Shown here: in pieces, positions 52,443 through 56,030 of the stretch
How the letters are laid out: each line of letters opens with the position of its first letter
How positions within the stretch are numbered: position 1 is the first letter of the stretch
Assembly: GCF_014803405.1 (NCBI RefSeq)
Contig: NZ_JACYFG010000040.1
Location: 186,001 to 250,000, forward strand
Origin: Pelagicoccus enzymogenes
GTDB lineage: Bacteria > Verrucomicrobiota > Verrucomicrobiia > Opitutales > Opitutaceae
DNA length: 64,000 nucleotides
Reading direction: 5' to 3'
Program-made: the position numbers and the translations under genes
The notes under the pieces: generated by a model
The model's database searches: none
What the model was told of the DNA's origin: nothing
Seen by the model: only the letters and a program-made list of their open reading frames with translations

Positions 52443-53609
52443 CTAAGGCTCGACCGAAAAGCCCTTCTCCAGCCCCGCAAGCACGAAGTCGCAATAGGTC
52501 GCCGGCAAGGAAGGCCTCAGTTCCCCGTGAAACTCCCGCAAGCCCTCGTAGTCCCCAGCCGCCGCCCACTCGTAAACCCCTTTGCTGTTCGCCTGCCAAG
52601 GCTCGAGGTAGAGCACCGGGCAGTCGTAAATGCGATTCGCCAGCAAGTTGCGCGACCAGAGGTATTGCTCCGCGTCGATCGGACAGGCGTTTCCGGCGGC
52701 ATATTGGTAAGCGGGCAAGCCCGTGGCGGCCCGGATGGAGTCAACCATGCCTCTGCCCAGTCTCTCCTCTTCGACATGGTAGCCTTGGAGCAGGCGCAGC
52801 AGCAACTCCAGCCGCTGGGCAGGCGAAGCCAGCTCGGAGTCAAGGTAGCAACCGTTGATCAAGACATGGGCGTCGTTGCGTTCGTGCAAGGCCGGCTTTT
52901 CCGGGTCGGCGAATCCGCTGGCGTTGATGTGGAGGGCCAAGGCTAGGTCCGCCCCGCCCCACGCTTCGATCAGCTGAGCCCGAGCTCGAATTTCCGCAGT
53001 CCGATAAAAAAATCGCTCAGCCAAGGCCGCCACCCGCACTTCGTCCTGGGCCCACTTCGCCCTTGCCTCCTCCCAAAAATCCTTCGAGCGCAAGGGGGTC
53101 GCCGGCTCCGCAGCCTCCCGCGTCAGCAAGACCTCCGCCCCCTGCTCCCGCAAACGGGCCGCCAGCCGCCGGGCAATCGCCAGCGTCAAGTCCCCTTCTT
53201 GAACCACCGGACCGTCCCCGATCGCGAAGGAACGTTCCTCCAACGGCCCCCAGGTTCCGCCAATGTGCCCGGGATCGAGCACGATACGCAGGCCTCGCAA
53301 ACCGCTCCATGTAGAGGGCGAGACCACGGGACTGCCTTCCCCGAAGCGCAGAAAGAACCCCTGTTCGCCCGGCAGCTCGCCGGTCTCGATCCAAACCCCG
53401 CTCTCCTCGACCCGCATCCACTTCCGCCACTGGGCGGTGGGCGCGTAGATTCGCTCCATCGCGTTCTCGAAAAACGAGCGGCTCACCGCCCCGTGAAAAG
53501 CCTCCAGCTCCTCCCAATTCCGCTGCGAACGCAGGGCATCAACCGGATCGCTTGCCGAGAAAACGGAAACCGGAAACCAAAGCAGCCAAGAAAGGAGCAG
53601 AGATCGCAT
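52443..53609 (-). CDS. N-acetylmuramoyl-L-alanine amidase, exported
   Basis: Zn-dependent amidase_3 enzyme that cuts the bond between N-acetylmuramic acid and the stem peptide of peptidoglycan. The 388-residue product has a signal peptide ([19 protein letters not shown]). Expected zinc and catalytic residues are seen: His115 in VLDPGHIGG, Glu138 in VVQEGDL, His227 in LALHINASG and Glu336 in LYLEPWQ. The catalytic domain is longer than in AmiA/B/C (about 280 residues from VLDPGH). It is divergent from the epimerase-carboxypeptidase gene with about 70 bases between starts, pointing to a shared murein-recycling function. Confidence 0.88.
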
Positions 53610-53679
53610 GCCGCTACTCCATGCAATTCCCAGGCCAAGGTCCATCGATTTGGCCGGAAACTTGCTCGCAGGCCGCACG

Positions 53680-55488
53680 ATGCTGACCTGCCAAATCCAC
53701 CTCTACACCCTCGAGCTCAAGCAAGCTTGGGCCATCGCCAGCCGGCTCGGACCCGGGGGGCGAGGCATCGGGCACCGCAGCAGCCTCCTGCTCAAGCTGA
53801 GCGACCGATCGGGCGCCACCGGATTCGGCGAAGCCGCTCCAGTCGCCACCTACGGCGAAACTGCCCTCAGCGTCCTGCGATTCCTGCGCGAGCTCGATTG
53901 GCAACAGCTAAGCTTCCGCGACCTGCCCCGCAGTCTCGCCTACTTGGGTTCATTGCCCGCAGGCAACTCAGCCGCCAAGGCTGCCATCGACCTGGCGCTG
54001 CACGATGGCGCCGCCAAAATCTCCAGGAAGAGCCTCGCTGAGCTGCTTGGCCTGCCCTTTCGCCATGAAGAGCTGCCGCCCACCTCCTACAGCATCGGCA
54101 TCGGCAGTCCCGACGAGATCGTGGAGCGCGCACTGGATGCCGACCGCTTTCCCATCCTCAAGCTCAAGGTGGACGCGCGCAGCTTCGAGACCTCCCTCAG
54201 CGCCCTGCGAAGCGTGAGCCCGAACAAACCGGTACGCATCGACGCTAACGAGAGCTGGAGCTCCCGCGAAGCCGCCCTCGACGCCATCGAGAAAATGGCT
54301 GCCTTCGGCCCTATCGAATTCGTGGAACAACCCATGCCACGCGGCATCGCCTTGGAGGACGCGGTTTGGCTGAAGCGGCACAGCCCCCTCCCCCTGCTGG
54401 CCGACGAATCCTGCTGCGGGAAAGACGACCTAGACGCCTGCGAACAAAGCTTTCACGGAATTAACGTAAAGATCGCCAAAGCCGGAGGCATCGCCCCCGC
54501 CCACCAGCTTGCAACCGCCGCCCGCGCTCGTGGACTCAAGGTTCAGCTGGGCTGCATGATCGAGAGCAGCCTCGGGATCGCCGCCGCCCTGCAGCTCGCG
54601 TCCAAGGCAGATTGGATCGACCTCGACGGAGCCTTGCTGACTCGCAACGACCCGATAAAAGGCGTAGTGAAAAAGTCAGGACAACTCAACTTCGACCCAA
54701 TCGTCGAACCCTTCGGGCTACGCGTGTCTCCAAAATTCGACTACTGGAACGAGCAACCGCCCCTGCCCAAGCCAATCGCCGACCGATCCCGCACTCCACC
54801 TGCCCACTCCACTTACGGGCGCTCGGTTAACGGAATTCCCTTGGAAGTCCATCTTCCCAGTTCCGGGCATTGCGAAATCTTGATCTTTGCTGCGATCCAT
54901 GGCGAAGAGCCGGAAACCACCACCCTACTTTCCAAGGCCCTCCGCTCTCTCGACAAGCCTTCCCCCACTTGCGCCGCCGTGCTCTGCTCCAATCCCGACG
55001 GCACCCTGCTCGGTACGCGGGTCAACGCCAACGGGGTCGAGCTCAATCGCAATTTTCCCGCCAGCAATTGGCAACCGGACCCCGTATCCACGAAATGGGC
55101 ACCCAACCACGGATACGTCACCCACTCCACCGGCTCTCAAGCAGCTTCCGAACCGGAAACCCGAGCCCTCATATCGCTCGTGGAGGCCTTGGATCCGAAA
55201 GTGATCATCTCCTTGCACGCGCCGCTAGCCTGTATCGAGGATCCCGAATACAGCCCCATCGGCTACTGGCTCTCGAAACGGACCGGCCTCCCGCTGTTCA
55301 GCCACATCGGCTACGAGACGCCGGGATCCTTCGGCAGCTGGGCCAAGGAGCGAGGTCGACACGTCATCACCTACGAACTCCCCCCGCTTTCCGTTTCCGC
55401 CCTCCACCACAAGCACCTCGACAACCTCGTCGAACTCCTCTGCTACGGCCTCGAGGTATATCGCGAGCCGCTCGTCTTCAGAGCCTGA
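53680..55488 (+). CDS. Fusion of L-Ala-D/L-Glu epimerase and MpaA-like murein peptide amidase
   Basis: A 602-residue two-enzyme fusion. Residues 1 to about 360 are an enolase-superfamily dipeptide epimerase: Lys161/Lys163 in ILKLKVDA, metal ligands Asp188 (RIDANE), Glu216 (EFVEQP) and Asp242 (LLADES), and Lys267 in VKIAKAGG. Residues about 385-602 are a zinc carboxypeptidase of the M14 family: YGRSVNGIPLEVH, zinc ligands His407 and Glu410 (IHGEE) and His513 (SLHAP), substrate Arg457 (NRNFP) and catalytic Glu566 (YELPP). In E. coli the matching enzymes (MpaA and YcjG) are adjacent genes that cut the gamma-D-Glu-diaminopimelate bond and racemise the released Ala-Glu. No signal peptide, so it is cytoplasmic. 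Confidence 0.9.
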   Translation: MLTCQIHLYTLELKQAWAIASRLGPGGRGIGHRSSLLLKLSDRSGATGFGEAAPVATYGETALSVLRFLRELDWQQLSFRDLPRSLAYLGSLPAGNSAAKAAIDLALHDGAAKISRKSLAELLGLPFRHEELPPTSYSIGIGSPDEIVERALDADRFPILKLKVDARSFETSLSALRSVSPNKPVRIDANESWSSREAALDAIEKMAAFGPIEFVEQPMPRGIALEDAVWLKRHSPLPLLADESCCGKDDLDACEQSFHGINVKIAKAGGIAPAHQLATAARARGLKVQLGCMIESSLGIAAALQLASKADWIDLDGALLTRNDPIKGVVKKSGQLNFDPIVEPFGLRVSPKFDYWNEQPPLPKPIADRSRTPPAHSTYGRSVNGIPLEVHLPSSGHCEILIFAAIHGEEPETTTLLSKALRSLDKPSPTCAAVLCSNPDGTLLGTRVNANGVELNRNFPASNWQPDPVSTKWAPNHGYVTHSTGSQAASEPETRALISLVEALDPKVIISLHAPLACIEDPEYSPIGYWLSKRTGLPLFSHIGYETPGSFGSWAKERGRHVITYELPPLSVSALHHKHLDNLVELLCYGLEVYREPLVFRA

Positions 55489-55613: not shown

Positions 55614-56030
55614 CTAGGATCGCCCCTCGCTACGCCACTTTCGCAGAACGGAGAAAGCCTGCCCGACTTCCTCCTGATCGAGCGCCCAATCCCCGTCCTG
55701 ATCGAAATTTGCCAAGATAAATGCCGCTGCCTTGTCCGGCGTACCCAACATCGGGTCTTCGCGACGCTCCTCGATACGAGCCTGCAAGGCCTTCGCCTTG
55801 CCAGCGTCCTTTTCATCCAACTGGCTCACCCGCTCGAGCCGACGCTGCTCCTGTCGAGCCAGAGCGGACATGAGTTCCGCTTCGTCCACTCTCTGGTCAT
55901 GGTCGAGATCCAGTTTCAGAAAGAGTTCAGTTCTCTCCCCCGCTTCGGCAAGTTCGGGACGGGCTGCAGCATTCGCTTGCAGGAGGAGGCCGCAGAGGGA
56001 GAGGCCTATCAATGCACGATTCGTTTTCAT
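55614..56030 (-). CDS. Exported EF-hand protein
   Basis: A 138-residue exported protein (signal peptide to ANAA, about residue 22) with two EF-hand-type calcium loops: DLDHDQRVDEAEL (about 41-53) and DQDGDWALDQEEV (about 109-121). The part between is a charged helix. Likely periplasmic and calcium-binding; no catalytic domain. A promoter lies in the gap shared with the divergent hybrid kinase gene. Confidence 0.85.
   Translation of the reverse strand: MKTNRALIGLSLCGLLLQANAAARPELAEAGERTELFLKLDLDHDQRVDEAELMSALARQEQRRLERVSQLDEKDAGKAKALQARIEERREDPMLGTPDKAAAFILANFDQDGDWALDQEEVGQAFSVLRKWRSEGRS

Follow-up and report, generated by a model that had tools for sequence, protein, structure and literature searches.

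The murein-peptide amidase MpaA and the dipeptide epimerase YcjG of Escherichia coli act in consecutive steps on murein peptides. In one report, the bond cut by MpaA is the γ bond between D-Glu and meso-diaminopimelic acid (mDAP), with L-Ala-D-Glu as the product, and MpaA and Mpl of E. coli are described as competing for one tripeptide (PMC9928106). Fusion of a peptidoglycan enzyme to an epimerase has been described for XAC4296 of Xanthomonas, in which a lytic transglycosylase is joined to an aldose 1-epimerase; that source also reports separated, overlapping ("degenerated") genes in X. albilineans (PMC9143381). Here we describe a different fusion, encoded in Pelagicoccus enzymogenes within a stretch of 64,000 nucleotides (positions 186,001 to 250,000 of contig NZ_JACYFG010000040.1, assembly GCF_014803405.1; hereafter the window). 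The gene at positions 53680-55488 of the window encodes a dipeptide epimerase-like protein continuous with MpaA. XAC4296 resembles it in general plan and differs in its families (SLT_2 and aldose 1-epimerase, judged by the names given there) and in its reaction (PMC9143381).

We propose that the product acts in the cytosol as a bifunctional enzyme of murein-peptide breakdown, which would convert L-Ala-γ-D-Glu-mDAP to mDAP and L-Ala-L-Glu (probability about 0.85). Among the papers listed in searches on MpaA, dipeptide epimerases and peptidoglycan recycling, no account of this fusion was found, as judged by titles and the beginnings of abstracts. The enzymes are both known; their combination as domains of one protein is new.

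Architecture and identity of the fusion

A preliminary description of the locus had claimed a single continuous open frame joining an Ala-Glu epimerase to an MpaA-like amidase. The frame was confirmed: it runs uninterrupted for 602 codons from ATG 53680 to the stop codon at 55486-55488 on the forward strand. The following parts were distinguished:

53680..55488, + strand: epimerase-MpaA fusion, coding sequence of 602 amino acids; open frame, intact in three further genomes of the genus
53680..54729, + strand: dipeptide epimerase domain, residues 1-350 (MR_MLE_N/MR_MLE_C), with K161/K163, D188, E216, D242, K267 and D314/D316
54730..54804, + strand: linker, residues 351-375; weakly conserved, model confidence 77 at residues 351-360 and about 50 beyond
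54805..55449, + strand: MpaA domain (M14-type zinc amidase), residues 376-590, with H407, E410, R457, H513 and E566; the NCBIfam match covers residues 364-588

The identity of the two halves was likewise borne out by Pfam, NCBIfam and structure matches. Pfam assigned MR_MLE_N and MR_MLE_C to the first half and Peptidase_M14 to the second, and the second half belongs to the NCBIfam MpaA family (NF007897; 236.9 bits, cut-off 157). By sequence, the solved structures closest to the two halves are 3iji, a dipeptide epimerase of Bacteroides thetaiotaomicron, and 5hxd, MpaA of E. coli. MpaA from an E. coli plasmid record is 45% identical to the MpaA half over 93% of that half.

All 11 catalytic and metal-binding residues named in the preliminary description were found at the numbers given there. 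The six of the epimerase half align column by column with E. coli YcjG; K161/K163 are presumably the catalytic lysine pair, D188, E216 and D242 the three metal ligands and K267 the second lysine. The five of the MpaA half align in the same way with MpaA of E. coli K-12, which has the same set; we take H407, E410 and H513 to be zinc ligands, R457 the substrate arginine and E566 the catalytic glutamate. A C-terminal Asp-x-Asp pair (D314/D316), which we assume binds the amino group of the dipeptide, is invariant across 22 aligned rows and is found in YcjG also. The catalytic residues of both halves are kept in all four intact fusions among the five fusion sequences that were compared, namely those of the window (G000), G675/L033 (Pelagicoccus sp. 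SDUM812005), G620, G687 and L032 (Pelagicoccus SDUM812002; broken).

An AlphaFold model (22 rows) reached good confidence over most of the epimerase half. It was weak at residues ~361-390 and in much of the MpaA half, the latter because just three of the 22 alignment rows cover it. In a fold search the epimerase half matched 3iji and 3ijq (template modelling (TM) scores to target of 0.94 and 0.93; dipeptide epimerase with L-Ala-D-Glu); no MpaA structure was among the matches listed. The first half shares fold and catalytic residues with YcjG and the B. thetaiotaomicron epimerase, but is fused to MpaA and scores below the cut-offs of single-function models. MpaA of K-12, in contrast to the C-terminal half described here, is a stand-alone protein of 242 amino acids, and the fusion belongs to a phylum in which MpaA is rare.

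A second in-frame ATG is present upstream, at 53608. The methionine of 53680 is common to the four intact fusions and L032, and in L033 the DNA upstream of it is out of frame. The possibility that MpaA is also translated by itself, starting within the gene, was considered and rejected: no in-frame start ahead of the MpaA domain was found that is common to all five fusions. The window fusion has one GTG, 30 codons ahead of the domain core, and the G620 fusion has no start codon within 45 codons before it.

Predicted function and pathway context

The MpaA half would cut the γ bond between D-Glu and mDAP, releasing L-Ala-D-Glu, and the enolase-type half, judging from its family, would then invert the D-Glu center to give L-Ala-L-Glu. 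The latter dipeptide is usable by ordinary dipeptidases. By inspection the fusion appears to have no signal-peptide-like start. The probable benefit of a single chain is co-expression at a fixed 1:1 ratio; at most, the local concentration of the dipeptide might be raised. The fusion is real and keeps the catalytic residues of both halves; a joint role in the pathway is likely.

In the window's genome, MurE (518 bits) carries a DNPR motif, which we take as a mark of the DAP (diaminopimelic acid) type. A Mpl-like ligase scored just under its cut-off (386.7 against 388.7 bits); by analogy with E. coli, this ligase and MpaA would be rivals for one tripeptide in this organism. The preliminary description had modelled the pathway on E. 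coli. A link to two successive steps on murein peptides is supported, but the dipeptide was misnamed there, since the γ bond is the one that is cut and the product is L-Ala-D-Glu (PMC9928106). Its statement that mpaA and ycjG are adjacent is correct for K-12; their layout, however, is convergent, with an overlap of 26 bases.

Distribution and conservation

The preliminary description had suggested looking for the same fusion in other Opitutae. Intact fusions were found with the whole-protein query in three further genomes of the genus: G675 (71% identity), G620 (68%) and G687 (61%). With the window's own genome, this makes four of the seven same-genus genomes drawn. Because the fusion recurs in other genomes, it is neither a product of chance nor a sequencing error, and the possibility of a sequencing or assembly artefact was rejected. 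The MpaA-epimerase fusion is real and conserved.

Across the order, the MpaA profile was above cut-off in five genomes out of 372, always fused to or adjoining this epimerase. Four of these (G000, G620, G675 and G687) have it in long open frames, and the fifth, G363, which belongs to another family, in a short frame. A broader draw of the phylum gave MpaA above cut-off in G000 and G363 only (2 of 387 genomes). No Bacteroidota genome (0 of 395) was above the MpaA cut-off, with three weaker matches in frames of 212-269 codons. A Maribellus genome (G701) encodes an MpaA-like protein (L158; 212-codon frame, 107.7 bits, under the cut-off) as well as a dipeptide epimerase (L081 5860-6996), whose start resembles a twin-arginine translocation (Tat) signal (RRTFIRSAG, by inspection), suggesting an exported epimerase.

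Carriage of the fusion on mobile elements was also considered and rejected: none of the 429 plasmid records with a match covers 80% of it. The MpaA half alone matched 67 plasmid records, all at less than 60% identity, and two phage records weakly; a viral-contig scan with this half found no relative. Among the genomes surveyed (gammaproteobacteria were outside the survey), the fusion is confined to one genus.

Purifying selection acts on both halves. In all 10 pairwise comparisons among the five sequences (Nei-Gojobori method, NG86; L032 only in its open part), nonsynonymous divergence (dN) was 0.25-0.44 against synonymous divergence (dS) of 1.0-2.4 in the epimerase half (residues 1-350), and 0.10-0.26 against 0.84-2.4 in the MpaA half (residues 376-590), dS values above about 1 being rough. 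The linker (residues 351-375) is the least conserved part, with 28-68% pairwise identity among fusions over its 25 codons; its dS was saturated in some pairs.

Origin of the fusion

In G363 (L003, L153) the epimerase gene is followed by mpaA, head to tail on one strand and in different frames. All usable starts of this mpaA are TTG codons: with two of them the gene would share 19 or 10 bases with the epimerase gene, whereas a third lies 11 bases past it. The locus resembles the fusion in its epimerase-first order, its shared strand and its MpaA, which is 61% identical to the MpaA half of the window; it differs in that the genes are separate and the epimerase is only 42% identical to that of the fusion and on a long branch. 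No strong match to the MpaA half was found in any of the other loci compared with it at that stage. In the wider locus of G363 (L153 5092-8730) four genes on a single strand abut one another: a MenH-like gene, the epimerase gene, mpaA and a gene resembling BioF.

The abutting pair of G363 is plausibly the pre-fusion state, and the fusion probably arose from a pair of this kind through loss of the stop codon and a change of frame. In the preliminary description the order of the domains was remarked upon as the reverse of the pathway. The epimerase does come first, but this needs no special reason, because the same gene order is found in G363, the sole verrucomicrobial two-gene locus detected.

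The epimerase half was placed in a tree of 104 rows, 98 of them from loci (loci already represented, L032 included, and matches not exceeding 250 query residues were left out), and in a 37-row tree made from a chosen subset of these rows. In the 104-row tree the intact fusions, four in number, make up a single clade (100/100). The group around it (100/100) otherwise holds verrucomicrobial or unassigned rows, and the tree's ten epimerases from the family to which the window belongs lie elsewhere.

Evaluation of alternative explanations

Several results weigh against the proposed function and history. The first half scored 197.1 bits with the DgcA model of NCBIfam (cut-off 400) and 148.6 bits with the L-Ala-D/L-Glu epimerase model NF011708 (cut-off 343), which places it outside the latter family. 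Since these scores are well below the curated cut-offs, the exact substrate is not settled by the models and the half is not filed as that equivalog; the nearest structures and the fused partner point to L-Ala-D-Glu. No match to Peptidase_S66 (LD-carboxypeptidase) was found in the window's own genome. The fusion is missing from three of the seven genomes of the genus (G663, G677 and G685), and in L032 the frame is broken near codon 90, in the epimerase half (L032 6001-6300), with the MpaA half open. The fusion is therefore accessory or dispensable, although the break in L032, seen in one sequence only, may be an assembly error. The placement of G363 as sister of the fusion epimerase (81/93, unstarred) was obtained in the 104-row tree and is absent from the 37-row tree, where it was not rejected either (p-AU 0.0885).

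It is very unlikely that the enolase-type half is an o-succinylbenzoate synthase (OSBS; MenC) or has another activity of the enolase superfamily. MenC models do match it, below their cut-offs (TIGR01927, 69.8 against 130.55 bits; four other MenC models also under cut-off). In addition, the G363 homologue directly follows a MenH gene (210.5 bits, cut-off 208.55) and is the sole match in that genome to the one MenC model searched; because that model detected no separate MenC there, the G363 homologue may serve as MenC (OSBS) in its own genome. All seven same-genus genomes and G696, however, fusion carriers included, have a separate MenC above cut-off, which weakens the MenC reading of the fusion, so that the dipeptide-epimerase reading stands. 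The fusion also keeps the D314/D316 pair of dipeptide epimerases, and its best structural matches are dipeptide epimerases. It is likewise very unlikely that one half is catalytically dead and acts as a scaffold or regulator. The broken epimerase half of L032 beside an open MpaA half would agree with this; but that break is the single, possibly erroneous case mentioned above, the four intact fusions keep their catalytic residues and dN is well below dS in both halves. A direct hand-off, in which the amidase site would pass L-Ala-D-Glu straight to the epimerase site, as suggested in the preliminary description, was not supported and is improbable. Two consecutive steps on one chain with the catalytic residues of both sites kept would favor such channeling, but the linker is the part in which the fusions agree least, and the model, which has low confidence from about residue 361 onward, gives no site-to-site geometry. 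Also doubtful is a lineage-specific single-chain enzyme through which murein tripeptide, whether recycled or scavenged, would be committed to complete degradation, with L-Ala-D-Glu passing between the two sites by coupling or with the help of their proximity, in bacteria of a group once described as having neither muramic acid nor DAP.

Genomic neighborhood

Two further features adjoin the fusion gene upstream:

52443..53609, - strand: Amidase_3 gene (Pfam); start taken at ATG 53609, before a signal-peptide-like stretch; adjoins the fusion in four of the five fusion genomes
53610..53679, no strand: 70-base gap between the divergent starts; the DNA at ~53620-53667 is alike in L032, L033 and G620, not in G687

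The gap and the divergent arrangement are as given in the preliminary description, in which the fusion faces a murein amidase. The pairing holds in just those four genomes, however, and the amidase is probably exported: its signal-peptide-like start (by inspection) suggests a site of action outside the cytosol. A segment of about 48 bases within the gap is alike in the four genomes with the amidase-fusion pair, which would fit a possible shared control region for the two genes; in G687 the amidase homologue is on a different contig from the fusion. The amidase also occurs in G677 and G685, which lack the fusion. On the other side of the fusion, a small EF-hand-like protein (by inspection) is encoded at 55614-56030 (- strand); it adjoins the fusion in the window, L032, L033 and G620, and its homologue in G685 lies beside the amidase, with the fusion absent.

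Implications

The gene is a natural "Rosetta stone" fusion: in Verrucomicrobiota it links two successive steps, those of MpaA and of a dipeptide epimerase, and it is accompanied by a form in which two separate genes abut in matching order. Subdivision 4 Verrucomicrobia, including Pelagicoccus as assigned, have been said to lack muramic acid or DAP; according to the same source, later work detected DAP in some members by gas chromatography/mass spectrometry (GC/MS) (PMC5303756). An amidase for the mDAP tripeptide, together with MurE carrying the DNPR motif, fits the later view and gives an enzyme-level handle on this disputed trait.
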